Shown piece after piece: positions 44,986 through 63,228 of a DNA stretch of 64,000 bases (position 1 is the stretch's first letter; every line of letters begins with the position of its first letter). The position numbers were made by a program, and so were the translations under genes. This DNA is from Candidatus Rifleibacterium amylolyticum (GTDB lineage Bacteria > Muiribacteriota > Ozemobacteria > Ozemobacterales > Ozemobacteraceae). The stretch lies in assembly GCA_009917695.1 (NCBI GenBank), contig JAACJG010000003.1:310001-374000 (forward strand). The letters run 5' to 3'. Under the pieces are notes generated by a model. That model worked only from the letters and a program-made list of their open reading frames with translations. It had not been told where the DNA came from and made no database searches.

Positions 44986-45048
44986 AATTCAGGTTGATTT
45001 AAACATCCGCGACAAACAGTGTAATCAGCGGTTTCTGCCTTAGCCTTA

Positions 45049-46800
45049 TCAACTTTCGGCGTTCCATTTGTGGCGGAGGATCTGCAGGACGAAGATAGGA
45101 ATGCCGAGCATGCGCATGAAGCGGCGTGGCTCGAGCCATAGACGGAAAAGCCATTCGATGCCGAAACGCTGCATCCAGTAAGGGGCCCGCGGCAATGTCT
45201 GCGAGATTACGTCGAAACTGCCCCCTACACCGATTGCGACACCCCGTTTGAGACAGTTGCGCAGGCGCGCGATAAAAAACTCCTGGCGGGGCACGCCAAG
45301 CGCTACAAATATGATATCAGGATGAGCTGCGGCGATTTTTTCGAGAACGCTTTCTTCTTCGGCTGAATCGGGTGTGAAATAGCCATGTTCTATACCGCAG
45401 ATTGTTATACCATGCTCTTTTTGCAGTAGACCGGCTGCCTGCTTGGCTATGCCAGGTTTGCCGCCGAGGAAAAAGACTTTCCAGCCGGCTTTACCAGCAG
45501 TTTCGCAGATCTGTGAAACGAGAGCAACCCCAGGCACCCGACCGGGCAGGGGAGTGCCTAAGAAATCGGCGGCCCAGACAACTCCAGCTCCGTCGGGCAG
45601 CACCAGGGCTGCCCGGCGCATCGAATTGCGAAAGCGCTCGTCTTCGCCGGCCCGCACAAGTGCCAGCGAATCAGCAGTTACTATATGAAACAGCGTTGCC
45701 CCATTATTACCTGATGCGTTTGCTGGCGGAGTGTCGGGTGAAACAGAGCTGAGACGAAGATATTGTTCAATTCGAGCAATGACATCTGCTGGCAGAACAG
45801 CATCGATGGTGATACCGAGAATATCGATCTTTGCGGGAACTGGCGCGATTGGAACTGATTCCTTGCGGGCGAAGGTGCTTACAAAAACGAACAGCGAAAA
45901 TATGAACAGCAGAAATAATACAACATAAGCCGGACCCGGGGCGTCGATGATAACGAGCAGAGCCAGAAAGTTCAGACAGAGGAAGAACAGCCCGGCAAAA
46001 AGCACTGTTCTTTCGCGACGCAGTGACCATGAATAGTGTCTTTCATGGCTAATCCCCTGATGCAGGCGATTGCCAAAGTATGACGCCACAATCATAGCGC
46101 TGATCAGGGCAAATGGAAACAGAATTACCATCGAGGGCACAAAAATTCCGAAGATCAACAGACGGCCCGAGCCTTCCAGTAGAGAGATGGCAGCGAGCAG
46201 GAAGCCAGCAGCAAAAATTCCGCTGCTGCCAGTCAGCAGGCGTCTTCCACCGGTTGAATAGAAGAGCATCAACACTGAGGCGATCAAAAGCGAAAGATTT
46301 GCCAGAACCGCAGTCGGTGTGAACTGGTGCTGCGAGAAGAGGATAAACTGCGTAAGGGTGCTCGTTGTCAGCAGAATAAAAGGCATTTCATAGACCAGTG
46401 CCGCAATTTTGAGGCTGAATATTATCAGAAGTGCCCATGCGGTTGCTGATATGACAAACAGGCCACCGGTATCGGTTGCTGCAAAGAGACAGGCTATAAT
46501 TGTGAGCGCACACCATGGCAGAAGACTCAGATAAGAGAGCCTCTGACGGTCTCGCAGGAAGCCGATGAGCGACAGAAGACAGGCTGCTGCTGTCAATGCC
46601 AGAAAACTCTGCTGCGCAAATACCCCGCCTGCAAGTCCGGCGCCAAGCAATGCCCCAAGAAACGGAAATGCTCCGACATAATTGCCGCGTCCGAGCTCGA
46701 AGTTTACATGAGCCGTAAGTCGTCGCCCCAGCGCCCAGAAGAGTATGGCGCCTGCTGTGGCGGTGATGAGCGGTTCAATTTGTCCGGTGAAGTAATTCAT
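45049..46800 (-). CDS. WecG/TagA-type glycosyltransferase fused to a degenerate WecA-like membrane domain
   Basis: A 583-residue protein. The C-terminal 235 residues are WecG/TagA/CpsF: IDILGITIDAV, VTADSLALVR, LPDGAGVVWAADFLG (catalytic Asp), RVPGV, FLGGKPGIAKQAA, FVALGVPRQEFFI. These transfer ManNAc-type sugars to polyprenyl-diphosphate-GlcNAc. The first 335 residues carry about ten membrane helices and follow the WecA/MraY order (GAFPFLG, SLIGFLRDRQRLS, GSSGIFAAGF, HERHYSWSLRRE) but lack the DD pair and the H-rich loop is altered. I infer a dead or remodelled phosphoglycosyltransferase half used as a membrane anchor or substrate guide. Confidence 0.8.
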   Translation of the reverse strand: MNYFTGQIEPLITATAGAILFWALGRRLTAHVNFELGRGNYVGAFPFLGALLGAGLAGGVFAQQSFLALTAAACLLSLIGFLRDRQRLSYLSLLPWCALTIIACLFAATDTGGLFVISATAWALLIIFSLKIAALVYEMPFILLTTSTLTQFILFSQHQFTPTAVLANLSLLIASVLMLFYSTGGRRLLTGSSGIFAAGFLLAAISLLEGSGRLLIFGIFVPSMVILFPFALISAMIVASYFGNRLHQGISHERHYSWSLRRERTVLFAGLFFLCLNFLALLVIIDAPGPAYVVLFLLFIFSLFVFVSTFARKESVPIAPVPAKIDILGITIDAVLPADVIARIEQYLRLSSVSPDTPPANASGNNGATLFHIVTADSLALVRAGEDERFRNSMRRAALVLPDGAGVVWAADFLGTPLPGRVPGVALVSQICETAGKAGWKVFFLGGKPGIAKQAAGLLQKEHGITICGIEHGYFTPDSAEEESVLEKIAAAHPDIIFVALGVPRQEFFIARLRNCLKRGVAIGVGGSFDVISQTLPRAPYWMQRFGIEWLFRLWLEPRRFMRMLGIPIFVLQILRHKWNAES

Positions 46801-46882
46801 TTCCTAACTATAAGTTGCCGTCGCCAGTTTGGCAATATCAGCCAACACAAGAAAATCCGCAGGCCGCGAATAGGTCAGCATA

Positions 46883-46985
46883 AATCAAGTCATCCTGCGC
46901 GCAGTCGCAGGATCCAGAGAGGCAATGAAAACATGGATTCTGAACTTCGCTTTGCTGCGCGCAGAGCGACAGAGAGAGAAAATCG
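46883..46985. repeat. Dispersed palindromic repeat D (two adjacent hairpins)
   Basis: CATCCTGCGCGCAGTCGCAGGATCC (about 46891-46915), arms ATCCTGC/GCAGGAT, and, after GAGGCAATGAAAACAT, GGATTCTGAACTTCGC...GCGCAGAGCGACAGAG. It lies between the WecG fusion and the small membrane protein at 47041. The sequence type is the same as elements A-C. Confidence 0.5.
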
Positions 46986-47040
46986 GAGTAATCTGAGTAA
47001 TCGGCGTATCTATTATTGGAGGCAGAGTTGCTTTGTCGGG

Positions 47041-47262
47041 TCAGGTATTGCCCGAAAGTTCCCAATAGACGATGTAGTAGAGTATGGCAGCGAAATAAAT
47101 GATCTCGACGCCGATCAGCAAAGGAAAACGTTTGCGTTTGGCATCCCACCAGTCCCAGAAGAAGTTCAGACGGTCAAAAACGCCAAGCAGCACATGAACC
47201 AGCAGGTAGCAGAACGCAAAAAGCAGCGTCAGGAAAACTGGAATTGCATAATAGTAAGCCAT
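47041..47262 (-). CDS. Small membrane protein, 73 residues
   Basis: A 73-residue ORF with two hydrophobic helices, about 4-27 (YYAIPVFLTLLFAFCYLLVHVLLG) and 47-67 (FPLLIGVEIIYFAAILYYIVYW), separated by a DRLNFFWDWWDAKRKR loop. The helix-basic/acidic loop-helix arrangement and codon usage suggest a real gene, but there is no clear ribosome binding site and no family match. It is divergent from the beta-propeller gene at 47380 and lies upstream of the WecG fusion on the same strand. Confidence 0.55.
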   Translation of the reverse strand: MAYYYAIPVFLTLLFAFCYLLVHVLLGVFDRLNFFWDWWDAKRKRFPLLIGVEIIYFAAILYYIVYWELSGNT

Positions 47263-47379
47263 GCGCCAATATTACCACAGCTTTTTCCGGCAGGCAAACA
47301 GCAATTATATGCTATAATATCGAAGAATTAAGAATTGCCGGCAGCGACATTGTCGCCCGGCCCCGCAACAGGAGGGAAA

Positions 47380-48351
47380 ATGAAAATCGTCAGAATTCTG
47401 CTGATCGCCTTGTTTATAGCTTTTCCGCTTCTTTGCGAAGCTGTAGAGATTGTTTTCTGCGGCAGCGATGGCTCGCAGTTCGATCTCTATCGCGCTGACC
47501 TCAAAACCGGTGAAATAATAAGGATTACTGAAACCAAAGCTGAAGAGTCGATGCCGGCAGTTTCGCCGGATGGACAGAAGCTGGCTTTCGTTTCTGATCG
47601 CGATGGCGCCAACTCGCTTTATTTACTGTCTCTGCTCGATAACGCCAGTGCTGCTGTTAACATCAGCGCCGGCATGGGCTCTTATGCCAACCCGGCTTTT
47701 TCGCCTGATGGCAGGCGAATTGCGGTTCAATACGCTCCTGACCCCGAACTTGTCTGGGCGAGCACCTCGATTGTTTTGCTTGATCTGACGACCAGGCAGC
47801 AGCAGATAATTGTTGACAGCAGCCGATTGAAAACAAGTGAAAACACTGAAACCACAACCGTCGTTGATCGACCTGTCTGGGTTTCAGACAGTCTGCTTGT
47901 TTATGTGCTCGCCGAATACTCAGATCCCGAATCCGGGCGGATGTCGAAATCGACACTCTATATGTATGACCTTAAAAAGCAGCAGCACGTAAGAATTGCC
48001 GGTGGCGAAAGTTATTACAGTGCAGAAGGCGAAGCCATGGGATTCAAAGCGGTAATGCCTGCAGTAGTTTCAGAAAAAGACCGCAGCCGCTCGCTGCTGT
48101 TTGCCGCCGTTCGAGGCGCAACCGATCGTGCGCCGATGAAGATGGCTCTCCCGGCAGGGAACAAAGGGGTAATAGAGCTGAATGATCCTGAATTCTTCGG
48201 TCCGATGCTTTATCTTGATGGTCACTGGATATATGGCACCATGAACGAGGAAGGCGTTACCGGTATCTCCTGGCGCGCTGGCGAGGGCAAAGAACCGAAG
48301 CAGACGCTGAATTTTGCCGGGCGCATCATTTATCCAGCCATAATCCGCTGA
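47380..48351 (+). CDS. Exported beta-propeller protein of the TolB/PD40 type
   Basis: A 323-residue protein with signal peptide MKIVRILLIALFIAFPLLCEA. The mature part contains WD40-like PD40 blades such as GSQFDLYRADLKTGEIIRI, SMPAVSPDGQKLAFVSDRDGANSLYLL and YANPAFSPDGRRIAVQY. In TolB this fold forms a beta-propeller that binds Pal in the envelope. This protein lacks TolB's N-terminal domain, so it should be treated as a TolB-like propeller. A clear GGAGG lies before ATG 47380. It precedes rqcH by 22 bases. Confidence 0.82.
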   Translation: MKIVRILLIALFIAFPLLCEAVEIVFCGSDGSQFDLYRADLKTGEIIRITETKAEESMPAVSPDGQKLAFVSDRDGANSLYLLSLLDNASAAVNISAGMGSYANPAFSPDGRRIAVQYAPDPELVWASTSIVLLDLTTRQQQIIVDSSRLKTSENTETTTVVDRPVWVSDSLLVYVLAEYSDPESGRMSKSTLYMYDLKKQQHVRIAGGESYYSAEGEAMGFKAVMPAVVSEKDRSRSLLFAAVRGATDRAPMKMALPAGNKGVIELNDPEFFGPMLYLDGHWIYGTMNEEGVTGISWRAGEGKEPKQTLNFAGRIIYPAIIR

Positions 48352-48373
48352 GCAGCATTTTACAGGCGGCATA

Positions 48374-50095
48374 ATGGATTACCTTTCGCTGAAAAAGCAT
48401 GTCGGAGAGCTTACCGATATGCTGGCCGACAGGCCGCTTGTCGTGTGTGCAATCGGTTGTTCCGGGCGCAGCTTCGCGCTGCAGCTTAAACGCAAAGGTG
48501 GCGGCTGGTCGAGTCTGGTGGTCAATCTCGATAATCCCGATCAGGGCCTTCGAGTCGCCGAAACAGCGTCTGAGCTCGATAAGAATTCTTCACTGGTGCG
48601 CGCCGCAAACCGCCTGCTCACTGACAGTCGGCTGATTTCAGTCGAGCTGGCTGGCAGCGAAGCCAGTAAGCGGTTTGATCGCGTGGTTAAGCTGCATTTT
48701 GTGGCGATCGACAGCTTTTTCGGCAATCGCAACGATTACTATCTTTTGTGTGAGTTCACGGGGCGCATTGCGGATGTTTTTCTCTGTGATGCCGAATACA
48801 AGATACTCGACCGCCTTTCGCGCACCTCAAACAATATGATCGGTTCTACTTATCGGCTGCCTGAAAGCATGCCGGTAATCGACCCATGCAAAGCATCCAT
48901 TCAGGAGCTGGCAACGATTTTTGCCGCCCCGCCAGCGGAATGGAAAAACCGTATCGGCGCCCTTTCGCCAACACTGTACGCCACGCTGCTTGCACGCATA
49001 AACATTGCCGGCCGCGAACATGCCGGCGAAGAGTTTGCGCGTCTGCTCGCAGATGTCGTGGCTGACAAGCAGGCTTATGTTTATCATGCCGCCGGCAAGG
49101 TTCTGGCTATATCTGGCTATCGTCTCGACCATCTTGATAAAGCCGAGTGTCAGACTTTCTCCAGCGTCAACGATGCACTCAACTGGGCATATGAAAACAT
49201 GGTGGCGGTGAAACGGCTGAATGAGCGAAAAAAACAATGTGTCGACAAGATCGCGCGCGAAATCAGACAGAAAGAACGCCTGCTTGCCGACCAGCATGCG
49301 CTGCTTGGCAAATATTCAGACTCAGAACATTATCGCCATCATGGCGATCTTCTGATAGCCAATCTCTACCAGATAAAGCCGGGCAGTCGTTCGGTAGAGC
49401 TCGACGACTGGCAAACTGCGCAGCGCATTTGCATAGAAATTGATCCTTCACGCACTCCAGCTGCTTCGGCTCAACGTTTTTTCAACCTTTACAAGAAGGC
49501 CCAGCGTGGTATTGCTGAAGTCGAAAAGCGCATAAAGGTTCTCAGCGAAGATCTTGCCTGGCTGCGAGAGCAGCTGTGGCTGGCCGAAAACGCCGAAAAC
49601 GAGGCTGATCTGCTGATGGATCTCGAAGCTCCCGAGCTGGCTTCGCCCGGTCGTGGCAGTGGGCGAGACAAGTCCGGCGGCCGTTCTGGCAGGCGGCGCC
49701 CTGATTTTAAACCTGTTCTCGATATCGACGGCTGCCGCTATTATGCTGGCCGTAACGCACGCCAGAATGATGCTTTGACTTTCCAGATGGCGCGGCGCGG
49801 TGATTACTGGTTTCACGCTAACGATGTTCCCGGTGCACATGTGATTTTGCGCAAAGCTGAAGGCGAAATCAGCGAAACTGATCTTTACCGTGGCGCCGTG
49901 TTGGCTGCCTGGTTCAGTTTCGCCCGCGAAAGCAGCAAGGTACCGGTCGATTATGCCGACGTTGCTCACGTAAAAAGAATCCCTGGTGGCGGGCCGGGGC
50001 GGGTTTCTTATAGCCACCAGAAAACCCTGCTGGTTGATCCTGCCGCGGCAAAGCCTCTATTCGCAAATTGCAGTTCGGGCGAATCGAATGTATAA
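48374..50095 (+). CDS. rqcH: RqcH/NFACT ribosome-associated quality control protein
   Basis: A 573-residue NFACT protein. The N-terminal NFACT-N domain carries KRFDRVVKLHF, which includes the Asp-Arg pair associated with alanyl-tRNA selection in RqcH. A long coiled-coil middle (about 270-420) is followed by the NFACT-R domain with DGCRYYAGRNARQND, RGDYWFHANDVPGAHVIL. RqcH proteins tag stalled nascent chains with alanine on the 50S subunit. A Lys/Arg/Gly-rich low-complexity stretch at about 425-445 is an insert. Weak ribosome binding site. It follows the propeller gene in the same direction. Confidence 0.92.
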   Translation: MDYLSLKKHVGELTDMLADRPLVVCAIGCSGRSFALQLKRKGGGWSSLVVNLDNPDQGLRVAETASELDKNSSLVRAANRLLTDSRLISVELAGSEASKRFDRVVKLHFVAIDSFFGNRNDYYLLCEFTGRIADVFLCDAEYKILDRLSRTSNNMIGSTYRLPESMPVIDPCKASIQELATIFAAPPAEWKNRIGALSPTLYATLLARINIAGREHAGEEFARLLADVVADKQAYVYHAAGKVLAISGYRLDHLDKAECQTFSSVNDALNWAYENMVAVKRLNERKKQCVDKIAREIRQKERLLADQHALLGKYSDSEHYRHHGDLLIANLYQIKPGSRSVELDDWQTAQRICIEIDPSRTPAASAQRFFNLYKKAQRGIAEVEKRIKVLSEDLAWLREQLWLAENAENEADLLMDLEAPELASPGRGSGRDKSGGRSGRRRPDFKPVLDIDGCRYYAGRNARQNDALTFQMARRGDYWFHANDVPGAHVILRKAEGEISETDLYRGAVLAAWFSFARESSKVPVDYADVAHVKRIPGGGPGRVSYSHQKTLLVDPAAAKPLFANCSSGESNV

Positions 50096-50125
50096 TCTCG
50101 TCATAATGAGAAAATTGGGGAATAT

Positions 50126-51034
50126 ATGAAAAAAACACCGCTGCTCGCCATGGTTCTGATAGTGCTGCTTACCGCGGTTGCTCAGGCACAGACGCCGTCG
50201 GCCGAAAGCCTCATGAAGCTGATACGCGACATCAGACTGCCGCAGGATAACCTGAGTTCTCTGGCGTTCGATATGCGTATGAACCTGCCGATGCCGCTCA
50301 ACATACTCTGCCAGGTTCGCTATCATGCGCCAGACTGCTATTCTTTGCATGTCTTCGACGATCACGATCAGACCCCGGTATTGATAATCATCGATCATAA
50401 GGCGCTGATAAACGATCCGATGGCCGGCAGCCTGACGCTGATAGCTTCAGCGGGTGTCGCCTTCGATCTTGTGCCGCGCGGCGAAGAATATAACGCCCAG
50501 TTTGCCTTTAACATGCCGATTGATGGCAAGATCAACAATCGCATCGAGCTCGATTTTAAAACCATGTTTGCGCGGGTTACCGAGAATGTCAGCGTCGAAA
50601 GCGCCTCGGCTGGCGCGATTATCTTTTCTGGCACGACCAGCAAAAAAAGTCGCTGTACCGCTGTTCTCACGCCTGACGAAAAATTTGCTCTGCGCGAGGT
50701 CAATCTTTATATTGAGGACGAGCCACTTCCGATACTACAGATCAGTGATATCGGAGTCGATGCTGCATCGCAGACGGCGGCCATACTTTTCCCGATGACA
50801 GAACTTGCCGCATCGGGAGTTGAATACAGTCAGATTGAGCCACAGGGAATGGTCGATACCGCACTGGTTGCCACTTCGGTTATCAAAGCGGTGTTTGCCA
50901 GATCGGCGATACGAAATCAGCAGCTGCGTGAGAAAATCGAAGAAATGATTGGCCAGAGAGTTGACTGGGCGGCAATCGAAGCTTCTGATGCAGCGCGCTC
51001 AGAAAAACTGCGCCAGATTTTCAAGCCTCTCTGA
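50126..51034 (+). CDS. Exported protein of unknown function, 302 residues
   Basis: Signal peptide MKKTPLLAMVLIVLLTAVAQAQ, then a beta-rich mature region (LSSLAFDMRMNLPMPLNILCQVRYH, VLIIIDHKALINDP) reminiscent of LolA-like outer-membrane lipoprotein sorting folds, and a helical C-terminal half. No catalytic motif. The LolA resemblance is only in layout (N-terminal antiparallel strands after a signal peptide) and should be treated as a guess. GGGGA precedes the ATG. The 3' end overlaps the Rrf2 gene by 14 bases on the opposite strand. Confidence 0.65.
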   Translation: MKKTPLLAMVLIVLLTAVAQAQTPSAESLMKLIRDIRLPQDNLSSLAFDMRMNLPMPLNILCQVRYHAPDCYSLHVFDDHDQTPVLIIIDHKALINDPMAGSLTLIASAGVAFDLVPRGEEYNAQFAFNMPIDGKINNRIELDFKTMFARVTENVSVESASAGAIIFSGTTSKKSRCTAVLTPDEKFALREVNLYIEDEPLPILQISDIGVDAASQTAAILFPMTELAASGVEYSQIEPQGMVDTALVATSVIKAVFARSAIRNQQLREKIEEMIGQRVDWAAIEASDAARSEKLRQIFKPL

Positions 51035-51449
51035 CGTATTTTGCACAATTGCTGCCGGTAAGCTCGTCAAAAGTGCAGGCGGCATATTCAGCTCGCAGCT
51101 TCTTTTGCAGCTGTTCCAGCCTTGTATGAATCGGGCAGCGGCGACTGCGGTCACAGGCGTCGAGATCCTGGCAACAGATGTTGAGATTGATGGCGCGCTG
51201 GTCAAACAGCTCGAGAACATCGAGAAGCGAAATCTCGGCCGGTTTGCGGGCCAGGAAAATGCCACCCTGTTTGCCGCGATGGGTCGCCAGTATTCCGGCT
51301 TCAACCAGATGGTGCGAAATTTTTCGCAGAAACCGGTAAGGGATATTCATCTTCTCGCTGATTTCGGTTGTCGCAACCGCACCTTCACCACTGTGCTGTG
51401 TCAGATACAATACCGTTCGAATGGCATAATCGGCTTCTCGTGTAATCAT
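51021..51449 (-). CDS. Rrf2-family transcriptional regulator with cysteine cluster
   Basis: A 142-residue Rrf2 protein. The winged helix is ITREADYAIRTVLYLTQHS, then the recognition helix region MNIPYRFLRKISHHLVEAGIL and GKQGGIFLARKP. Cysteines in NICCQDLDACDRSRRCPIH match the three-Cys cluster that binds an Fe-S centre in IscR/RsrR-type members, so it should sense Fe-S status, oxidative or nitrosative stress. ATG 51449 has GGAAG upstream, while the in-frame ATG at 51491 does not. Target promoter not visible, but the divergent DnaB-like operon starts 144 bases away. Confidence 0.92.
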   Translation of the reverse strand: MITREADYAIRTVLYLTQHSGEGAVATTEISEKMNIPYRFLRKISHHLVEAGILATHRGKQGGIFLARKPAEISLLDVLELFDQRAINLNICCQDLDACDRSRRCPIHTRLEQLQKKLRAEYAACTFDELTGSNCAKYVREA

Positions 51450-51592
51450 CTTGTCTTCCGCCAGTTTATAATGATATAAAATGAGTAACAAATATCCGGC
51501 ACTGAGTCAAGCAATAGATTGCCGGCGTGCAATGCTCATTGACAGTGTACGCGCACTGCATTAGAATGATGCAGAATGCAGCGGAGGTAAAC

Positions 51593-53191
51593 GTGGCAGC
51601 AAATAAAAGCGGGCAGCGCCCGGCAAAGCGAAAAGGCAGCGGTCAGGCAGCAGGCAATCCTGATATAAGAAGCAATCTGATTGAGTATCTGCGCGAAGTT
51701 GAGCTCGACGAAGAGCGTATTCTCGCCAATCTGGTATTCGAACCGGTCGTTATTGGGCGTCAGCTCGAAGAGAACCATTTTACCATCACCGATTTTCAGG
51801 GCCCCGAAGCAAACCGCATACTGCTTGGCGCCATGCTCGATCTGATCGAAGACGGCCTGCAGATCAACCTCGCAAATCTAATTTCGCTGCTGGCGCAGGA
51901 ACGCCCCGGCAAGAAAACCAGACTCGAACTGGCCGGTGGTGAAGACCGGGTTAGAGAACTTTTTCTTTCGCCGTTTTCGCGGGCGGGCGTCAGTATGCTC
52001 GACGATATCGAGCCGGTTATCGAGCGCATCAGGGACCGCAATATCAGAGTCGAAGCACATCGCACCATGGTGCAGTTTTCTGAACGCATAATTCATGGCG
52101 AAAAAGACGCATTCGAAATATTGGGCAACAGTATTCAGTCTCTGCGAAATCTCTTTTTGCAGGGCAGTGCCGGTTACATCCGAAGCCTCGATTCGCACCT
52201 CGCCGAAATGGAAGAGCTGATCACCGATCACCGCGAGCAGAAGCGCAGCTATCTTGGCCTGCAGACAAACTTTCCGATTTTGATGGAGCGCCTCAACGGC
52301 TTTCAAAAAGAATTTTATCTCATTACCGGCGGCGTCGGCATGGGTAAGTCTACCTTCGCGACTCAGCTCGCCTGGGATCTCGCCAACCTCAACCCCGATC
52401 TGACCGTTATCTTTTTCAGCCTTGACCTTAATCGCCTCGACGCTACTTCAAAGATTGTTTCGCAGGCGGCCGAAATTCCGATCGACTATGTTAAGAATCC
52501 CTATATTCCGCGCAGCGATATAGAGGAAAAGCGCAAAGCAGCCTTGCAGACGGTCGGAAACATGAGCAGCCGCCTTATTCTCGTCGATGAGTCCTGCGGC
52601 AGGCTTTTCATCGATGATGTTAAAAAATATGTTAAACGTACCCGCCTTGAAAGAGCTGGCGATGTAGCGGTCGTCATCGACCCCATTTTCAAGATACTGA
52701 TGCGCAATCAGGCGCAAATGACCTTTAATGAGCGCTGCAACCTGCTTTCAGCTGAACTCAAAAGCCTGGCAGCGGTAGAGGGCGTTACCGTTATCGCGAC
52801 GGCCGGTTTGCCCAAGGCGATCAGCAGTCGGCGGCCGGTTAAAGAAGACCTCGAAGAAATCATGGGCCTTCTCTATGATCCCTATGCAGTGTTCTTTTTG
52901 TATTGTGACTATCTCAACAACTTTGATACGCCATTCCTCGAATGGGAATGGGGCAAAGAAGACAGTTTCATGATCCCTATCACCGAGGCGTATATCGCCA
53001 AAAACAAGATGGGCAGCACCAATGCGCGCATTTTTTATCGGTACTTCGAGGCTTATTCCAAATTCAAAGAATGTGCGCCGCAGGAAGTCGAAAACTACAC
53101 GGCGATGATCGAAAATCTCGAACGCTTCAAAGAGCAGCAGACCAACCCGCACGCAACCCGCCACGGCAGTGGCCGGTCTGAGGAATTCTAA
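51593..53191 (+). CDS. Divergent DnaB-like RecA-fold ATPase
   Basis: A 532-residue protein starting at GTG 51593, with GGAGG five bases upstream. The first 200 residues resemble the helical DnaB N-domain (ANRILLGAMLDLIEDGLQINLANLISLL). The ATPase domain has Walker A GGVGMGKST, FFSLDLNRLDATSKI for the DnaB ‘ffSLEM’ segment, Walker B VVIDPIFKI and AKNKMGSTNAR for ‘KxRxGxTG’. Changes at functional places are SLD for SLE, TAGLPK for SQLNR and Lys for the arginine finger. It is therefore unlikely to be the replicative helicase. It heads an operon with a TPR and a HEAT protein, end to end. Confidence 0.78.
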   Translation: MAANKSGQRPAKRKGSGQAAGNPDIRSNLIEYLREVELDEERILANLVFEPVVIGRQLEENHFTITDFQGPEANRILLGAMLDLIEDGLQINLANLISLLAQERPGKKTRLELAGGEDRVRELFLSPFSRAGVSMLDDIEPVIERIRDRNIRVEAHRTMVQFSERIIHGEKDAFEILGNSIQSLRNLFLQGSAGYIRSLDSHLAEMEELITDHREQKRSYLGLQTNFPILMERLNGFQKEFYLITGGVGMGKSTFATQLAWDLANLNPDLTVIFFSLDLNRLDATSKIVSQAAEIPIDYVKNPYIPRSDIEEKRKAALQTVGNMSSRLILVDESCGRLFIDDVKKYVKRTRLERAGDVAVVIDPIFKILMRNQAQMTFNERCNLLSAELKSLAAVEGVTVIATAGLPKAISSRRPVKEDLEEIMGLLYDPYAVFFLYCDYLNNFDTPFLEWEWGKEDSFMIPITEAYIAKNKMGSTNARIFYRYFEAYSKFKECAPQEVENYTAMIENLERFKEQQTNPHATRHGSGRSEEF

Positions 53192-55084
53192 ATGGAAACA
53201 GAAACCGCACAGGAATTTTTCGAAAAAGGTGTCGATTTGCAGCAGCGCGGCCTATTTGACCACGCTATTGAAGAGTATGACCGCGCTCTGCGTCTTGATC
53301 CCGACAACATCAATATTATGTTGAATCTCGGCGCCGCCTGTCTGCAGAAGGGGCTTTCTGACCGTGCTGTTAAGCTTCTCAAGAAGGTTCTTGAGCAGGA
53401 ACCCGAAAACAGTATGGCTCTTTATAACATAGGCAAAGCCTATATTTATCGCGAAGAATACGAACAGGCTCTCGCACATTTCAACCGGGCCGCGGCCCAG
53501 CAGCCAGAGGATCGCGACATTAAAAAACTTATCGCAGTTTGTCTGCGGCATCTCGGGCGCATCGAACAGTCGGTGGCAATCACCCTCGGTCAGCTCGACA
53601 CAATAACCGCTGATGCCGATGCGATGTTGCGTCTTGGTGATGATTTGATGAGTCTTGAGCGCTTCGATGAGGCTCTCGATATTTTTCGTCGTACCAGCGC
53701 GGTGGCCTGCGATTCTATATTGCCTTTGCTCGGAATTTATCAGTGTCAGCTTCGTCTTGATAACAGAGAAAAGGCGGTAACAGCGCTCAAGCGGGCGATA
53801 ATGATCGAGCCGACCAATCAGGAGTTGCTGGTGAAACTCGCTGATGTATACCTTGGCGACGGGAGAATTCCGGAGGCGGTCGAAGTTATCAACAAGGGTC
53901 TTGAAACAATTGCCTCGCCGAATCTGCTGCGCGAGAAATATAACGAAATGGCTCGCCGATTACCGGTTTTGCGCAAAAAAGCCGCGGCATCGCGCCTTGA
54001 GTCTGGCTTGAGCCGGCATGAAACTGATGTTTATGATATTCTTGACGGTCTCTATGATGGCCGTATCCGGCTTGAAATTGCCGTAAAAGAGCTCGAGGGG
54101 CTGCGTCGCAAAGATCCTTCCGATCTGCTGGTCGCCGATGAGCTTGCTAACCTGCTGTTTCAGGCGCGAGAATTTGGGCGTGCCGCCGAGATCTATTCAG
54201 AAGTCCATCTGAGCCGGCCAAAAGAGCCCCGTCACCGCATCGATCTCGCAAAATCACTGGCAATGAAAGGCGATACCGAAGCTGCCCGCGCCATTCTCCG
54301 TGATTCTATAAGAGACCTCGGGCACATGCCGGAACTCGATCTGGCAATGACCGAACTCGACCTTTTCGATAAAGAATTCGAACGCGCTGCAGGTCGTCTT
54401 GAGATCATACTGAAAGAATATCCGGCTGAGCAGCATGCGTTGTTTCTCTATGCCTATACAGCCATGCGGCTCGATGAGCTCGAAACGGCCGAAACAACCT
54501 TCAAGCAGCTTTTCGAAAAGAACAGTACTGATGAAGAACTGGCTGTCTGGTATTCGCGTCTCGCGATCATGCAGGGGCAGCCGGCGCGGGCTCTCAAGGT
54601 CTGGGAAAACTTCAGCGACGGTATTGAAAGCCTTGTCGAGATTATCGCCAGGGTGGAGCTGACGCTGGCAACAGGCGACAGCAAGGGAATAATGCGGCAT
54701 CTCCAGAAGATTGGCGATTATCACCCGCGTTTCATCGAAGATCATATGCTGTTTGGCAAAGCCTTTTTCTTTGCCGGTGATTTCTCTTCGGCACAACGCG
54801 AATTTGATCTGGTGCTACGCCTTGAAGCTCGTAACGCCGAAGCTCTGGCAATGTCGGCGATGAATTCTCTGATCCGTAACAAAACAGCAAAATTCTGGAA
54901 TTTCTGGCAACACGCAATCGACTGTGATTCTCTATATGCTGTAATTCCAGCTATGGTGCTAAAAGACAGTCTGAATTTTTCGCAGCGCGAACGTCTTAAA
55001 ACTGAGACGCGCAAAATGGTAGATATTGGCGCTCTCAAAGAGATAGACAAAGCGCGCCTGGCCAGGCTGCTGAAGTGCCTCTAA
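53192..55084 (+). CDS. Cytoplasmic TPR protein, 630 residues
   Basis: No signal peptide. Starts METETAQEFFEKGVDLQQRG and continues with regular TPR units (FDHAIEEYDRALRLDPDN, AVKLLKKVLEQEPEN, EQALAHFNRAAAQQPED). A less regular middle (about 270-420) may be a spacer. It begins directly at the stop of the DnaB-like ATPase gene, so translation is coupled, and the HEAT protein gene follows 14 bases later. Hence likely partners are those two proteins. Confidence 0.85.
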   Translation: METETAQEFFEKGVDLQQRGLFDHAIEEYDRALRLDPDNINIMLNLGAACLQKGLSDRAVKLLKKVLEQEPENSMALYNIGKAYIYREEYEQALAHFNRAAAQQPEDRDIKKLIAVCLRHLGRIEQSVAITLGQLDTITADADAMLRLGDDLMSLERFDEALDIFRRTSAVACDSILPLLGIYQCQLRLDNREKAVTALKRAIMIEPTNQELLVKLADVYLGDGRIPEAVEVINKGLETIASPNLLREKYNEMARRLPVLRKKAAASRLESGLSRHETDVYDILDGLYDGRIRLEIAVKELEGLRRKDPSDLLVADELANLLFQAREFGRAAEIYSEVHLSRPKEPRHRIDLAKSLAMKGDTEAARAILRDSIRDLGHMPELDLAMTELDLFDKEFERAAGRLEIILKEYPAEQHALFLYAYTAMRLDELETAETTFKQLFEKNSTDEELAVWYSRLAIMQGQPARALKVWENFSDGIESLVEIIARVELTLATGDSKGIMRHLQKIGDYHPRFIEDHMLFGKAFFFAGDFSSAQREFDLVLRLEARNAEALAMSAMNSLIRNKTAKFWNFWQHAIDCDSLYAVIPAMVLKDSLNFSQRERLKTETRKMVDIGALKEIDKARLARLLKCL

Positions 55085-55098
55085 ATCAGGAAACCCTA

Positions 55099-56514
55099 AT
55101 GACAAACACCAAACCACAGAAATCACGCAACGTTAAAGCTCTTCGCCGCATGGTTGAACAGCTGGAAAGAGTGCCGGCAAAAAAGCTTGAGAGTGCTGTC
55201 TGCGATATAATCGATTTGGGCGGCTTCTCTCTGGCTGTGCTGCTTGAAAAACTGCCGGCGCTGACGGTTCCGGTTCAGACAGTCGTGGCCCGCAAAATAG
55301 AAGATTTTCTCTATTTTCATCCGGAAAAGGGGGCAAAGCTGTTTGATCGACTCCAGTCCGCCATGCGCGACGCCGACATCTCCTGCCGACCATCGTTGCT
55401 TGCTGCAATTGCTGATGTTTCTGATTCGGTCGCCATAGATCATCTTGCCATGGGCAGGCTGGCTTCTGATGCGCTCGATGCTCTCGACAGCAATATGGAC
55501 TTTGCTCGTATGAGCAGAGCCGTCGAACTGGTGGTTAAAGCCTCCGGCGTTTCAGGAATCCCCGCTATTATCAAATTGATGATTAAATCATCAGAAAAGC
55601 TCGACCAATATTCCAATTATCAGTTTATGGAAACAGCTCTGATGGCTCTTAAGCGTCTTGGCGGGGAGCCGGTGATCAGATTATTGATAAATCCTTCTTC
55701 GGCCGATGCTATTCGTCAGCTGCGTATGGAATGGCGGGCCATGGATCAACAGCTGCTCCAGGAGACAATGGCGGCGCTGCGGCTTGCCGACGCCGATTTT
55801 GCTCAGATCATGCTTAAGGTGATAGACCTTTCTGAGTTTAACCTGCCGTTTGCGGCTATGATAAAAGAGGGCGTGTCACATAGCGATAAATGGGTTCGCC
55901 AGGCTGCCGCTGCCTCAATGCAGAAGGCATCTGCGGCTCTGAGCCCCGAGTCGCTTGCCCGCATGCTTAATGATGAATCTTCAGAAGTTCGCCTTATGGC
56001 AGTAACCTCGCTGGGCGGCTTTGAGCGTGAACAAACAGGCGCCATGCTCGAAGAGCTTGCATCGCGCCAGGGCGAGTCGATAGAAGTTCGTTTAAATGCC
56101 CTTTATGCGCTTTTTGCCCAGAAGAATCGGACTGCGCTCGAAAATCTTGTGCAAACAGCAGATAATCACCGTCTCGCGGTTAATGCCCGCGGCTTGTCTG
56201 CCATGCTTATGCCAAAAGAAGATGGCGCCAGAGTTATGCTTCAGGCTTTCGTTGATATCGGTTCTGACATGCTGACAGAAGCAACTCACTACCTGCTTGA
56301 AATACTTGAGCCTGAGGATATCGAAATTTTGATAAAAGCGCATTCTTCCTCTGGTAGTGAGCCTCGACGAGAGCGTCTTATCGATTTTATGAGATTGTTT
56401 ATCGACCGAAAAGCTGGTCCGAGACTGGATCAGGCAAGAATGCGTCTTTCAGAAGCCGAACAGAAGGCTATAGAGATGCTTGCGCCTAAAAGCCAGGTTT
56501 CGACAGCAGTTTAA
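55099..56514 (+). CDS. HEAT-repeat protein, 471 residues
   Basis: Helical repeat protein with HEAT units such as DKWVRQAAAASMQKASAALSPESLARMLNDESSEVRLMAVTSLGGF and IEVRLNALYALFAQK. The basic N-terminus (TKPQKSRNVKALRRMVEQLERV) is an amphipathic helix. ATG 55099 is preferred to ATG 55075 because an AGGAA ribosome binding site is nearest to it. It ends the plus-strand operon that begins at 51593. No catalytic motif. Confidence 0.8.
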   Translation: MTNTKPQKSRNVKALRRMVEQLERVPAKKLESAVCDIIDLGGFSLAVLLEKLPALTVPVQTVVARKIEDFLYFHPEKGAKLFDRLQSAMRDADISCRPSLLAAIADVSDSVAIDHLAMGRLASDALDALDSNMDFARMSRAVELVVKASGVSGIPAIIKLMIKSSEKLDQYSNYQFMETALMALKRLGGEPVIRLLINPSSADAIRQLRMEWRAMDQQLLQETMAALRLADADFAQIMLKVIDLSEFNLPFAAMIKEGVSHSDKWVRQAAAASMQKASAALSPESLARMLNDESSEVRLMAVTSLGGFEREQTGAMLEELASRQGESIEVRLNALYALFAQKNRTALENLVQTADNHRLAVNARGLSAMLMPKEDGARVMLQAFVDIGSDMLTEATHYLLEILEPEDIEILIKAHSSSGSEPRRERLIDFMRLFIDRKAGPRLDQARMRLSEAEQKAIEMLAPKSQVSTAV

Positions 56515-57160
56515 TACTGACAATCCCGGGTTCTGTCTCTCTTTTGTCGCCGGACCCGGCTAATTACTGCTTTATTAGCGTATTCAGCCTCTCTTGACGC
56601 TGCTTTCAAAACTTTGGCCCGCTTTTGGCGAGTAATTCAGGCCCTCAGAGGAGTTTTCCTTTATAAGCTGGTTTTGGTCGCGGAAGCGGCCATTTTTTGC
56701 TGCAGATTTTACGGTTAAGCGGCTGATGGCGACCAGCGCTCTGAAAAATGCTTTACCCGCAGTTCCGACAGGGTTTTAGCAGTCGCCCGCACATAATTTG
56801 TCGATGAGATGCTGACAAGCGGTCCTGATTTAATGGAGCGCTTCCTGTTTTTGCTCGGGCAATCGCATTTTTAACTTATTTATGTTAAAAATAAGCTTTA
56901 TTTGTTAAAATAGTCTAAAAAATGATTAAAATAATGATATTTTATTGATAATAATGATGATATTAACTATAAATTAGTAAAATAGGCGCTGCGACGAAGA
57001 TCAATATTGTTTCTATGGTTGGAGGGTTGGTCTATGGCGGCGAAGAAATAGTCAGACCACCAGGCGACGCGACCGTTAATCTCTGCTGGTTGCGAGGTCA
57101 GTGGCTTGCAAAAAGATTGTGGAGTCTCTGTGCTATCGTCTGCGAAGCGCGCGTGAGATC
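56515..57160. other. 646-base convergent intergenic region with AT-rich island
   Basis: No supported gene. Between converging genes. The first 350 bases have average composition, with the weak palindrome GCCGGACCCGGC. About 56870-56995 is a strongly AT-rich island containing TTTTTAAC...GTTAAAAA arms and repeated AATAATGAT-like words. No DnaA box TTATCCACA was noticed. The ORFs here, including one from 57015, have no ribosome binding site support or recognisable domain. Confidence 0.5.
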
Positions 57161-58276
57161 TCAGCTCAAAAAGGCTGTGACGGCTTCGATAATGCGTTCC
57201 CCTGCCCTGCCGTCGCCGTAAGGGTTAACGGCTTTGGCCATCTTTTCGTAAGCATTATGATCGCAGAGAAGTTCGCTGGCACTGTTCAGAATTTTTTGTT
57301 TGTCGGTGCCGACAAGCTTGAGGGCCCCGGTTTCGAGGCCTTCCGGGCGCTCGGTTGATTCGCGCAGAACCAGAACCGGCTTGTTCAGACTTGGAGCTTC
57401 TTCCTGGACGCCGCCAGAATCGCTCATTATCAGATGGCAGCGCTGCATGGCCATTATAAAAACCTGATAACTTAAAGGTGCTGTAAGGTGAATGCGGGGG
57501 TGGCTTTTCAGTTGTCTGGCCGCTTCGTCACGCACTTTCGGGTTAGGATGAATCGGAAAGAGTATGTGCACGTCGGCAAACCTGTCGACCAGCTCGAGCA
57601 GGGCTGAGAAGACCTGGCGGTGCGGGTCGCCGAAGTTTTCGCGGCGATGGGTTGTAACCAGTATCAGACGTTCGTTAGACGCAAATATCTCGGCAAATTC
57701 CTTTGGCGCGCTGAGTTTTCGCTGCAGGCTCCAGTGCAGGGCGTCTATTACTGTGTTGCCGGTTACAAATACACTATGTTCAGGTGTGCATTCATTGAGC
57801 AACATCTGGCGTGCCCGCTCGGTTGGCGCAAAATGCAGGCTGGCGAGCGGCGTGACCAGGCGGCGGTTGATTTCTTCGGGAAACGGGCTGTAGCGATTCT
57901 GAGTTCGCAGACCTGCTTCGATGTGGGCTACCGGAATCTTCTGGTAGAAGCCGCCGAGAGCCCCGAGAAAAGCTGATGTTGTGTCGCCCTGCACGAAGAT
58001 CATATCGTATTCGTTGCGCGAGACGATTTCGCCTATGCCTTCGGTTATCCGGCTGGTAAGCTGAAACAGAGACTGGTTGGGCTGCATCACAGCCAGATCG
58101 AAGTCTGGTTCGAGCCTGAAGTGTTTGAACATTTCTTCGGCCAGTTCCAGATGCTGGCCGGTATGGAGTATCTGGACGGTAATGTCAGCTTGTTTTTGTG
58201 CGGCAAAAATGACCGGAGCCATTTTTATGACTTCCGGTCGGGTGCCAAGTATAAATAGAAAGCGGCGATGCTGCAA
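57161..58276 (-). CDS. wecB: UDP-N-acetylglucosamine 2-epimerase
   Basis: A 371-residue WecB of normal length. GTRPEVIKMAPVI is the substrate-binding N-terminus, with VQGDTTSAFLGA, HIEAGLRT, PFPEEINRRL, TTHRRENFG, PIHPNP and SDSGGVQEEAPSL(NK)P(V)L(V)LRESTERPEG as family motifs. It makes UDP-ManNAc, the precursor of the sugar added by WecG-type enzymes, so it may supply the fusion protein at 45049. Two bases separate it from ftsH upstream on the same strand, so it is cotranscribed with it. Confidence 0.96.
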   Translation of the reverse strand: MQHRRFLFILGTRPEVIKMAPVIFAAQKQADITVQILHTGQHLELAEEMFKHFRLEPDFDLAVMQPNQSLFQLTSRITEGIGEIVSRNEYDMIFVQGDTTSAFLGALGGFYQKIPVAHIEAGLRTQNRYSPFPEEINRRLVTPLASLHFAPTERARQMLLNECTPEHSVFVTGNTVIDALHWSLQRKLSAPKEFAEIFASNERLILVTTHRRENFGDPHRQVFSALLELVDRFADVHILFPIHPNPKVRDEAARQLKSHPRIHLTAPLSYQVFIMAMQRCHLIMSDSGGVQEEAPSLNKPVLVLRESTERPEGLETGALKLVGTDKQKILNSASELLCDHNAYEKMAKAVNPYGDGRAGERIIEAVTAFLS

Positions 58277-58278
58277 GA

Positions 58279-60267
58279 TCAGGGGTCTTTTCGATATTCG
58301 CCCGGATTGTAATCTTTAGGGGGCTTAGTCTCAGGCGACTGCTGATTGGTATTAGAACGACCTGCATTCGCTATGGCTTCTACTGCTGCATCTATGGGTT
58401 TGGGCTGTGGTGGCGGCAGCGGCGGCAGTTCGCGCCCGGCAATGAGTTCTTTGAACTCTTCACCGCTGATAGTTTCACGTTCCAGCAGCGCTTTTGATGA
58501 GCGATTGAGCAGTTCGCGATTTTCGCTGAGTATTTCCATCGCCTTGTTCTGTGCCCAGTCTATCAGTTGCCTGATCTCGGCATCTATCTTGCGCGCAGTG
58601 TCGTCAGAAAGGTCGTTGCGTGTATTGAATTCACGGCCGAGAAAAACGGTCTGGTTGTCGTCGCCGAGATGCAGCGGTCCGATCTCGTCGCTCATGCCGA
58701 GTTCGCAGACCATTTTGCGGGCAATCTTGGTGGCGCGTTCAATATCGTTCTTGGCGCCTGAAGTGAGTTCGTTAAACACGATTTTTTCAGCTGCCCGGCC
58801 GGCCAGCAGTACGCACAGCTGGTCTTTGAGATGACTGCGCGAGACGGTCAGGCGGTCTTCAACCGGCAACTGCATGGTCATCCCAAGCGCCATTCCTCGC
58901 GGAATAATGGTGATCTTGTGCACTGGGTCGGTATTGGGCAGAAAGGCTGCAACCAGCGCGTGGCCCATTTCGTGGTAGGCTGTGTTTTCTTTTTCTTTTT
59001 CTGAAATGATACGGCTTTTGCGCTCAGAGCCGGCAATGACCTTGTCGATAGACGCTTCGAAATCAGACATTAAGACGATTTTGCGGCCATGGCGGGCAGC
59101 CAGAATCGCAGCTTCGTTAGTCAGATTGGCAAGGTCGGCGCCGACAAATCCTGGAGTGCGCCGGGCCAGCACTGAGAGATCGACGTCGTCTCCAACCGGT
59201 TTGTCGCGTACATGTATTTTAAGTATTTCTTCGCGTCCTCTTATGTCGGGCTGGTCAACGACAATTCGTCGGTCGAAGCGTCCCGGGCGGAGCAACGCCG
59301 GGTCAAGAACATCGGGGCGGTTAGTGGCGGCTACCAGAATGATACCTTTGGTGTTATCGAAACCATCCATCTCTACGAGCAGCTGGTTTAGGGTCTGTTC
59401 GCGTTCGTCATGACCTCCGCCGAGTCCGGCGCCACGCTGACGACCGACTGCGTCGATTTCATCCATAAAAATGATGCAAGGTGCATTTTTGCGGGCCTGT
59501 TCAAACAGATCGCGAACACGCGAAGCACCTACGCCGACGAACATTTCGACGAATTCAGAACCACTTATATTGAAGAACGGCACATTGGCTTCACCGGCAA
59601 CAGCCCGTGCAAGCAGGGTCTTACCCGTGCCCGGAGGCCCGAAAAGCAACACGCCGCGTGGAATCTTGGCGCCAAGATCGGTAAACTTGCGGGGTTCCTT
59701 GAGGAACTCGACAACTTCCAGCAGATCTTCTTTGGCTTCGGTTACCCCGGCAACATCTTTGAACAGCACTCGTTTTTCGGTCGGGTCGACCATACGTGCC
59801 CGGCTTTTCCCAAAGCTGAGGGCTTTGGCGCCGCCACCCTGCGTCTTTTGCAGAATATAGAGCCAGGCGCCGATCAGCAGTATGAAGGGGAACCAGTTTA
59901 TGAGCAGGTTGAGCCACCATGACATCTGTGCCGGCGGTTCGGCTTCTATGATTATGTTTGAATTCCTGATGATTTCCATCAGACCGGGATCATCGGGCAC
60001 GATAACGACAAAGTCAGTGGTTGGCGCTTCGTTGCTGGAGCCCAGAGTAACCTGCTTTTGCAGACGTCCGGAAATCTCGCGGTCGTTGATCTTGATTCCC
60101 GAAATCATGCGGCCGGTATCTTCGCCTTTGATGATTTTGAGAAATTCAGAATACTTGAGCCGCTGGACCTTCTTGGTGCCCGCAATATTGGTAAATGCGG
60201 TGAGCAAAAGTATCAGCAGCAGAGCGTAAAGTGCGACTGTTTTCATTTTGGTGGGTTGTTCTTTCAT
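58279..60267 (-). CDS. ftsH: ATP-dependent zinc metalloprotease FtsH
   Basis: A 662-residue FtsH. Two membrane helices (about 10-28 and 118-138) flank a periplasmic domain. The AAA+ domain has Walker A GPPGTGKT, Walker [28 protein letters not shown], the pore FVGVGASRV. The protease zinc site is HEMGH with the third ligand further on (KNDIERAT). It degrades membrane proteins and, in many bacteria, regulators such as LpxC. A Pro-rich C-terminal tail follows the protease domain. Standard length. Confidence 0.97.
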
Positions 60268-60362
60268 AATCCTGCGCCTGTTGTTGGTTTTTCAGAAGTC
60301 TGTAAATATGATGCCATGCTATCACAAGCCTGGCTACTTATCAATTTAATGTTCGGCTGCGC

Positions 60363-61502
60363 TCAGCTGTTCTTGAAAAGTCGTTTCTGCTTGGTTTTCA
60401 GCCAGCTGATCCAGCCGGATGACTGTAGAACCTGTTGTTCAAGAAGGTCGAGCAGCATTCCCGCGTATCTGCGACTCTTTTCGGTCTGCCCATTGAAGGC
60501 GAGTATGGTCGAAAGTGCCCGGTCACCCATATTGACGACCTTTCCCGCTATTTTCGTGAATTCGTCGTCGTTTTCGAGGGTTTCGAGCCACCAGGGAATA
60601 CATTCGATGCCATTCTGGCGGAAAAGTGCCTCGCGTGCGTTCTGTCTGATTTTTGGGTGTTCATCGGCAGACATGTCGGCGAGCAGTTCGAGTCGCCCGG
60701 GAATATTGACCTTGTCGAGTACGAATACTGCTGAGGCCTTCATCCATGGGTTGTCGTCGATAGCCATGACTTTTAATGCCGTCAGCAGCTGGTCGTGGCT
60801 TTCCTTGTTCCAGAGCGCCTTGATTACATTGGCACGCACCCGGTTGTCTTCGTCGTTCAGCATTGGCAGAAGAAGTCTGGTGACGTCCGGCAGATCGAGT
60901 CGTTCTATCGCCTCGATGGCATTGGCGCGTACGCGTGCATCTTCTTCCTGCAGGGCCCGGGTAAGAAAGCTGACGACATTGTCGTCAGGAAGTGCCAGTT
61001 TTCCTGTGGCAGCAACGACACAGGCTTTTATGCGCGGGTGTGTCTCAGCTTTGTAGAGGCTCTGGATGGCGCCAAGATTGCTTGGATCTCCGATTCTGCC
61101 AAGGGTTTCGACGGCCAGTGCCGCCAGTTCAGGGTTTTTATGCCTGAACACGCCTATGATCTGTGAACTTGCCGAAGAGTCTTCTAGTTCGCCCAGCGCT
61201 TTAAGGCTGTTATATACGATATCTTCGTCTTCTGATGCCAGCTTTTTTGCGAGCTCGTCAATACGTTCCGGCGTTTGAGGCCGGTCGGGCAGAAGTTTCC
61301 AGATGCGAATTCCCTCACGCTCTATGCTGCGTATCCACGAGGCGCTGTTATAATCAGTATAAGAATCGAACTCACGCTCGGCCTTTTTTAGAGCCGATTC
61401 GCGGTCAACAGCGGCCACAGTATATTCGATCTTGAACTTTTTACGTGGATTCGCCGATTCGCTGTAAGGTATAATGACTTTGTAAGTTTTTGCTGCCTGC
61501 AT
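60363..61502 (-). CDS. HEAT-repeat protein, 379 residues
   Basis: Residues 1-85 form a separate alpha/beta module with charged surface (VIIPYSESANPRKKFKIEYTV, SALKKAEREFDSYTDYNSASW). Residues about 90-345 are HEAT/PBS-lyase-like repeats: EDIVYNSLKALGELEDSSASSQIIGVF, PELAALAVETLGRIGD, DARVRANAIEAIERLD, DNRVRANVIKALWN. No catalytic residue is evident. It stands alone, 95 bases upstream of ftsH on the same strand, and may share its promoter. The plus-strand zinc protein diverges from it. Confidence 0.82.
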   Translation of the reverse strand: MQAAKTYKVIIPYSESANPRKKFKIEYTVAAVDRESALKKAEREFDSYTDYNSASWIRSIEREGIRIWKLLPDRPQTPERIDELAKKLASEDEDIVYNSLKALGELEDSSASSQIIGVFRHKNPELAALAVETLGRIGDPSNLGAIQSLYKAETHPRIKACVVAATGKLALPDDNVVSFLTRALQEEDARVRANAIEAIERLDLPDVTRLLLPMLNDEDNRVRANVIKALWNKESHDQLLTALKVMAIDDNPWMKASAVFVLDKVNIPGRLELLADMSADEHPKIRQNAREALFRQNGIECIPWWLETLENDDEFTKIAGKVVNMGDRALSTILAFNGQTEKSRRYAGMLLDLLEQQVLQSSGWISWLKTKQKRLFKNS

Positions 61503-61588
61503 AGCTGTACATGTTAACAGATACCTTAGTCATTCTCAACCGGAGTTGCAGGTTTTATGACAGCAGTTATCATTATCGGGAGATCGGC

Positions 61589-61864
61589 ATGAATTCAGAG
61601 AATCTCATTTGCAGGTGCTGCGGTTGTTCGTTTAAACAAAGCGTAGCTCACCGCGATTTTCTGGCTGAATACGGTTGTGACGTGCCATCGCTTTACTGTC
61701 CCACCTGTTTTGCCGAAAGATTGCGGCAGATATGGGAAATCCCCGGCGAAAAGCGGGTGGCCGCATGCAGTATGTGCGGCATGCTGACCCGGTTATGCTT
61801 TGTACCAAGCCTCGATCGCCCGGTCTATTGCCAGGAATGTTTTCGCAAGATGAAAGCAGAATAA
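61589..61864 (+). CDS. Double zinc-ribbon CxxC protein, 91 residues
   Basis: ATG 61589 has GGGAGA upstream. Four Cys pairs are seen: CRCC/CGC near residues 9-13, CPTC near 37-40, CSMC near 60-63 and CQEC near 81-84. The last two, in AACSMCGMLTRLCFVPSLDRPVYCQECF, follow the CxxC-x17-CxxC zinc-binding family with PVYCxxCF, which is widespread in bacteria. The first two form another ribbon. Function unknown. Convergent with the exported protein gene on the minus strand. Confidence 0.78.
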   Translation: MNSENLICRCCGCSFKQSVAHRDFLAEYGCDVPSLYCPTCFAERLRQIWEIPGEKRVAACSMCGMLTRLCFVPSLDRPVYCQECFRKMKAE

Positions 61865-61878
61865 GACTGCGTTTGCGC

Positions 61879-62355
61879 TCATTCTTCGCTGATCGGAAAA
61901 CTGACGGTAGCTGGCATAAGTTCTGAGGTTTCTGGCAGTATACTGCTGTCGGTGGCAGTTATATCTATTGCTCTGTCTGAATCGAAAATTGAAACATTGT
62001 TGCTGAGATCGAGTTCATCATAGCCAAGTTCAAGCGCGTTATCGGCTTCAATATCGAGTTTTTCGAGCTGCTGGGTAGACCGGCTGATATCGATATAACT
62101 TTCTTCAGGAACTGGCTCCGGAAAAAGTTCGCTGAAGCCACGCCTGATTCGGCGCATCATTGTTGTTGCCGGCAGAGTTTCGTAACGCAGTCTGAAGAGC
62201 TCTCCTGACTGGTCTGTGTGTTGCAGCGGGTGTCTGATAAGCTCAGGTTCGCCATGTGCTGGTATTCTCTGCCAGTGTGATATATTCTGAGCCGCGGCCA
62301 GGTCGCAGATCAGCAGGCTCAGAATTACTGTAATAATGGCTTTGTTAAACTGCAT
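61879..62355 (-). CDS. Exported protein of unknown function, 158 residues
   Basis: The coding sequence begins MQFNKAIITVILSLLICDLA with cleavage near AAAQ. The mature part is acidic, without Cys, with a Leu/Asp/Glu-rich C-terminal half (STQQLEKLDIEADNALELGYDELDL) and no recognised domain. ATG 62355 overlaps the 3' end of the MBL-fold gene by 11 bases. It probably follows that gene in one transcript. Confidence 0.6.
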   Translation of the reverse strand: MQFNKAIITVILSLLICDLAAAQNISHWQRIPAHGEPELIRHPLQHTDQSGELFRLRYETLPATTMMRRIRRGFSELFPEPVPEESYIDISRSTQQLEKLDIEADNALELGYDELDLSNNVSIFDSDRAIDITATDSSILPETSELMPATVSFPISEE

Positions 62356-63226: not shown

Positions 63227-63228
63227 TC

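Follow-up and report, generated by a model that had tools for sequence, protein, structure and literature searches.

The question raised by this locus is whether a DnaB-like ATPase gene, followed by genes for TPR and HEAT-repeat proteins, encodes a replicative helicase or an ATPase of another kind. The gene lies in a window of 64,000 nucleotides (G000:C3:310001-374000; positions below are those of the window) of the genome of Candidatus Rifleibacterium amylolyticum, which comprises 5.39 Mb in 35 contigs and whose named close relatives carry the title Candidatus Riflebacteria. The gene and its product are designated c0 here, and the eight groups of its family are designated f1 to f8, the family of the window being f1. 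A sequence-only reading had taken the protein for a non-replicative ring ATPase with protein-binding partners, perhaps a KaiC- or DnaB-like regulator. The analysis identifies c0 as a real, phylum-wide, non-replicative paralogue of DnaB, derived from DnaB rather than from KaiC.

The ATPase gene (51593..53191, forward strand, 532 aa) begins with a GTG codon at 51593, and a Shine-Dalgarno sequence GGAGG (51583..51587, +) lies 5 nt ahead of it. A sigma-70-like promoter, TTGACA-17-TAGAAT (51539..51567, +), is located 25 nt before the start codon and is the best of 11 such sites in the region, being a consensus match only (11/12). The gene for a TPR protein of 630 aa (53192..55084, +) starts at the base directly after the ATPase stop codon, and the gene for a HEAT-repeat protein of 471 aa (55099..56514, +) starts 14 nt past the TPR stop codon; hence, the gapless arrangement of all three genes that had been proposed is exact for the ATPase-TPR junction and does not extend to the HEAT gene. 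Both partner proteins match Pfam families above the cut-off. The TPR assignment is also supported by profile alignment and the HEAT assignment by a structure model, an all-helical solenoid of 29 helices (pLDDT 88), for which the 50 fold-search matches listed were HEAT/ARM-type and designed repeat solenoids only, with a TM-score over the query of 0.3 or less. Downstream, a hairpin followed by a T run (56675..56692, +) is a weak terminator-like signal, 9 such sites having been found against 7.7 expected. Since a promoter-like site lies just upstream of the three genes and a terminator-like hairpin follows them, both as consensus matches only, the ATPase, TPR and HEAT genes are read as one operon. 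An RNA element search of window positions 45000-64000 found none at the gathering score. A defence system was also considered and rejected, the PADLOC matches being weak only.

The surroundings of the operon include a gene for an NFACT protein (Rqc2/FbpA-type; 48374-50095, +), found upstream in many f1 loci, and a gene for a 302-aa protein (50126-51034, +), which has no Pfam match at E ≤ 0.001 and is kept upstream in some f1 loci. A second HEAT-repeat gene (60363-61502, −) lies beside ftsH and a UDP-GlcNAc 2-epimerase gene, with downstream conservation in close relatives.

A search for the true dnaB of the genome found a separate canonical copy on another contig (C20). Its product is the best DnaB_C match of the genome (370.7 bits, against 81.6 bits for the window gene) and carries the canonical SLE, SQL, DLRESGAIEQDAD and KQR motifs. 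The c0 protein exceeds the Pfam cut-off for DnaB_C (PF03796; 79.3 bits against 27), and PF03796 matches all 36 members of the family alignment, from which locus L112, with a stop inside the match frame, and the fragment L115 were left out, at E ≤ 0.001. The score of c0 is far below the cut-off of the DnaB equivalog TIGR00665 (101.9 against 385.25 bits), and its identity to the DnaB of the same genome is 26% over 228 residues. In a tree of 51 RecA-core sequences, 20 of the named family proteins form one clade (support 100/99), and the 17 DnaB rows, which include Virgibacillus, Calothrix and Nostoc plasmid DnaB, phage GBK2 and P1 Ban, form a separate clade (98/99). Because a canonical dnaB exists elsewhere in the genome and the window protein groups outside the DnaB clade, c0 is neither the sole DnaB of its genome nor a member of the replicative branch, which, together with the equivalog score, upholds the non-replicative assignment of the sequence-only reading.

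The DnaB origin is also supported by comparisons of structure. When the 36-row profile was compared with solved structures, DnaB ranked first (7e-33), in an alignment that extends from the N-terminal domain onwards, whereas KaiC appeared only at E ~0.01. The structure model of c0 (pLDDT 79.6, pTM 0.60) matches E. coli DnaB (9oa1_D) over residues 25-501, with a Z of 31.1 and an rmsd of 5.2 for 437 aligned residues; Z values are about 30 for DnaB, 21 for RadA and 20 for KaiC. The protein shares with DnaB (SF4; TIGR00665, PF03796) the N-terminal helical domain, the linker helix and the RecA core with Walker A and B. The N-terminal domain and linker correspond to residues 26-192 (51668..52168, +), as judged from the model helices and from DnaB chains that align from about residue 25-30. 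This domain is present in 28/36 family members, PF00772 matching only 1/36, whereas the frames of members of f2, f3, f4, f7 and f8, five of the eight groups, measure 330-374 aa and do not include it.

The ATP site combines intact and replaced elements. Walker A, GGVGMGKS (residues 246-253; 52328..52351, +), is intact, with G251 and K252 in 36/36 members, as is the Walker B aspartate (Asp363, 36/36) in VVIDP (52670..52684, +), where Pro (32/36) replaces the DnaB Tyr. The catalytic glutamate of the DnaB SLE motif has given way to Asp278 in SLD (52418..52426, +), with D in 36/36 family members and E in 16/16 DnaB proteins. At the finger position, the K-x-R of DnaB (K[QHN]R in 16/16) is replaced by two lysines, K470-N471-K472 (53000..53008, +), the KNK being found in 36/36 members. 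Compared with the 16 DnaB proteins, the window protein also has Gly405 for the Gln of the SQ segment and DLEEIM for DLRESG, and its finger reads AKNKMG for AKQRNG, with Lys472 for Arg. The earlier description of kept Walker motifs and a changed SLE glutamate, SQ segment and arginine finger was, therefore, accurate. No Gln sensor is found in the family (Q in 0/36 rows), and the DLRESG signature of the DNA loop is likewise lost throughout the family.

In a motif table of 20 of the named family proteins and the 16 DnaB proteins, several residues universal in DnaB are replaced: Glu268 by Asp, Arg448 by Lys, Tyr348 by Pro, Thr or Gln and Gln390 by Gly, Asn, Arg, Asp, His or Ser, while Arg409, Ser411, Gly412, Gln416 and Arg426 are lost. 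The Walker A Gly-Lys, the Walker B Asp, the Arg-Pro pair and the first finger Lys are kept, and the window ATPase still has basic residues around RRP and in loop 1. These changes are not sequencing noise, since Asp278 and K470-N471-K472 are shared by 36/36 aligned homologues.

According to passages of PMC9599734, which tabulate the DnaB residues Glu259, Tyr341, Gln381, Lys437 and Arg439, DnaB and KaiC contribute a K-x-R finger and RecA a pair of lysines (K248, K250), each extending no further than the γ-phosphate; passages of PMC2685736 agree on the role of K248/K250 in E. coli RecA. The source genome's own RecA is also of the two-lysine type and reads VKVVKNKVAPPF. As the published RecA lysines and this RecA both match K-N-K, the c0 family combines, at the level of sequence, the body of DnaB with a finger pair of the RecA type. 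The likeness concerns the motif only: RecA has a PF00154 domain, to which c0 has no match at E ≤ 0.1. It is probably convergent, because the overall fold and sequence of c0 are those of DnaB. According to a passage of PMC3236778, the R420A variant of a DnaB is completely inactive, which suggests that Lys472 plus Asp278 may alter turnover.

The C-terminal region carries a family-specific motif that is new relative to DnaB, EC...E...Y..M..N (residues 493-508; 53069..53116, +), with E493, C494, E498, Y502, M505 and N508 invariant in 36 rows. It is followed by a conserved EEF tail (53180..53188, +). Of the 36 rows, 21 end in EEF, 2 in DEF and 1 in EEL, these being the f1-type rows. In most rows, the EE codons (GAGGAA in the window) double as the Shine-Dalgarno sequence of the TPR gene; the conservation of EEF may thus be partly translational, and EEF as a pure protein motif was rejected as confounded by this overlap. 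At locus L095, however, the TPR start lies 46 nt downstream, the codons become GAA GAA and EEF is retained, which makes selection at the protein level likely. Some members that have no TPR neighbour also end in acidic-hydrophobic residues (EDIV, EDIF), and it is plausible that EEF is a recruitment tail. The EEVD/Hop interaction offers an analogy for a TPR carboxylate clamp; the residues that typify such a clamp are not apparent at the N-terminus of the TPR protein, and this reading is not claimed.

The gene is retained by nearly the whole phylum. A single-sequence search found an orthologue in 35/36 phylum genomes, the source genome included, at E ≤ 6.3e-38 and well apart from DnaB matches, and a profile search found one in 38 of the 39 genomes examined, only G028 being without it. 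A scan of 84,980 species with two peptide patterns followed by tblastn yielded 37 confirmed loci, none clearly of another phylum; both patterns derive from the C-terminal region, so that the scan would not reveal distant relatives in other phyla that lack them. The titles of the 37 loci comprise Riflebacteria/Ozemobacter, Wallbacteria, Muiribacteriota, UBP16/17, Cloacimonadota-labelled, unlabelled and stray-labelled MAGs (e.g., Erysipelotrichia, Methylomirabilis). A scan of viral contigs found no relative of c0, and import from a phage or plasmid was rejected; among the matches listed (25 of 291 and 25 of 759), the phage and plasmid matches are mostly annotated DnaB-type helicases with 22-26% identity. 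Between the window and three relatives of the same genus, the dN of the ATPase gene is 0.063-0.082 and the dS is 1.17-2.16, rates by which the gene is under strong purifying selection. The HEAT gene evolves faster, with a dN of 0.17-0.18 in two comparable relatives. Probably, c0 arose by an ancient duplication of DnaB that became fixed in the common ancestor of the Riflebacteria/Wallbacteria/Muiribacteriota group, and it has since been retained as a housekeeping ATPase.

Gene order differs among the groups. Those f1 loci for which enough sequence is available have the order ATPase>TPR>HEAT, and the HEAT gene is confined to f1. Loci of f3 and f8 read ligA>ATPase>TPR, and those of f7 read ligA>ATPase; the ATPase gene of f2, f4, f5 and f6 has neither a TPR nor a ligA neighbour, so that TPR adjacency is missing in these four groups and f7, and ligA adjacency in the same four and f1. 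In the f3, f7 and f8 named loci (L106-L112 and L114), ligA is directly upstream in 8/8, with a spacing of −8 to +16 nt in the seven measurable loci, so that start and stop codons overlap or come close to doing so. In genomes without this linkage, ligA is a single-copy gene on another contig (8/8 checked, including G028, which is without c0). The TPR profiles of f1 and f3/f8 align with each other over 597 columns with a probability of 100, the C-terminal region included, although TPR profiles attract each other. The association with a TPR protein seen in the window is thus conserved in f1, f3 and f8 loci. A TPR search of 14 genomes of f2-f8 gave, at E ≤ 1e-15, two matches adjoining c0, both in g13 (f3), and six others that are partial and lie elsewhere. 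Parsimony suggests that the ancestral operon was probably ligA-ATPase-TPR.

The best explanation, to which we assign a probability of about 0.5, is that c0 is a non-replicative, ATP-gated SF4 ring acting through TPR/HEAT adaptors, probably in genome maintenance; the ring, the ATPase activity and the partner binding are predicted features. The subunits would form a DnaB-type ring or a short oligomer, in which the two lysines of one subunit may sense the ATP of its neighbour, as those of RecA do. The binding of ATP, and its slow hydrolysis with Asp278, would switch assembly or conformation and would not drive replicative unwinding. The C-terminal motif and the EEF tail may hand the ring to the TPR adaptor and, in Ozemobacteria, also to the HEAT protein. 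The pathway would most likely be genome maintenance, i.e., repair, recombination or chromosome segregation, since the ancestral operon is probably ligA>ATPase>TPR. A broader proposal, which we advance tentatively and at less than even odds, is that c0 joins DnaB and RadA as a third SF4 ATPase that is universal in a bacterial phylum: a ring of DnaB type converted to a RecA-style two-lysine ATP switch, constituting a ligase-linked, TPR/HEAT-tethered genome-maintenance machine without a counterpart in cultivated bacteria.

It is possible, though doubtful, that c0 is instead a DNA motor of the RadA kind, specialised for repair or recombination and acting with LigA, either as a hexameric helicase of the DnaB type or as an engine of branch migration. 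The precedent is RadA/Sms itself, which, like c0, is a non-replicative paralogue of the DnaB type and has an altered finger motif; according to passages of PMC5512693, it is a hexameric helicase of this type, has a KNRFG finger of its own and departs from some DnaB motifs, and the loss of such motifs alone does not, therefore, exclude a DNA motor. The overlapping or nearly overlapping ligA genes of three families and the persistent basic residues around RRP and in loop 1 suit a motor too. However, the finger Arg, whose replacement by alanine in RadA lowered ATPase and helicase activity (same passages), is Lys in 36/36 members; the family has lost R409, S411 and G412 of the DnaB loop together with the Gln sensor, positions that mostly vary among its members, and five of the eight groups are without the N-terminal domain. 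Moreover, the source genome already encodes a RadA/Sms-like protein. The zinc motif and Lon-like domain of RadA/Sms were not found in c0 by Pfam search, the KNRFG of RadA/Sms differs from the K-N-K of c0, and the N-terminal domain of DnaB, kept in 28/36 rows of the c0 family, is a further difference from RadA/Sms.

A regulator of DnaB, which would join or cap the replicative ring as part of a mixed hexamer, a loader or a brake with the TPR/HEAT proteins as adaptors, is unlikely. Such a role would be served by the common fold and by coexistence with canonical DnaB, but the two proteins are only 26% identical, dnaB lies on another contig and the N-terminal collar is missing in five of the eight groups.

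The KaiC-like timing or signalling ATPase suggested earlier is very improbable and was rejected. TPR partners are common in signalling, and c0, like KaiC, is a RecA-fold ATPase with trans fingers, but its PF06745 match of 19.7 bits is weak and below the cut-off of 26.6. KaiC has two RecA domains and K-x-R fingers, whereas c0 has one domain, its family does not keep K-x-R, its sequence is nearer to DnaB and its fold seems to be so too (Z ~20 for KaiC chains against ~30). A separate two-domain KaiC-like protein is encoded in the source genome (G000:C6:181224-182588, L126). A decaying relic without function, which the altered catalytic residues might indicate, is refuted by conservation, namely the purifying selection, the phylum-wide retention and the invariant K-N-K and C-terminal motif.

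DnaB is thought to be derived from RecA-type ATPases. To our knowledge, there are few non-replicative DnaB offshoots in bacteria, RadA being the known one, and a literature search yielded neither a described paralogue of this kind nor any work on DnaB in this phylum. The c0 family is another such offshoot, retained by nearly a whole uncultured phylum; its fingers for sensing ATP have shifted from those of DnaB/KaiC to those of RecA, and the DNA-contact signatures were dropped. It may serve as a natural test of the roles of the arginine finger and glutamine sensor in ring motors and as a concrete handle on the biology of the phylum, which is noted for unknown genes in passages of PMC10849945.

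A second divergent DnaB_C paralogue, termed DnaB2, is encoded outside the window (G000:C6:292373-293173, L002; 768 aa). It measures about 500-816 aa across many phylum genomes, and the copy of the source genome has a long proline-rich N-terminal part. Its motifs are TYEQT, KGSGDLEYDLD and KNRD, so that, unlike c0, it retains the Glu and the Arg. The c0-family profile scores DnaB2 above DnaB in most genomes. In the tree, DnaB2 groups with c0 apart from DnaB (98/99), a join that may be false owing to long-branch attraction, the KaiC, RadA and D2_L149 rows being very long branches. Open frames of great length, by which a plain longest-ORF gene call is misled, also lie opposite the ATPase gene on the other strand in some relatives (L048, L050, L061 and L062).
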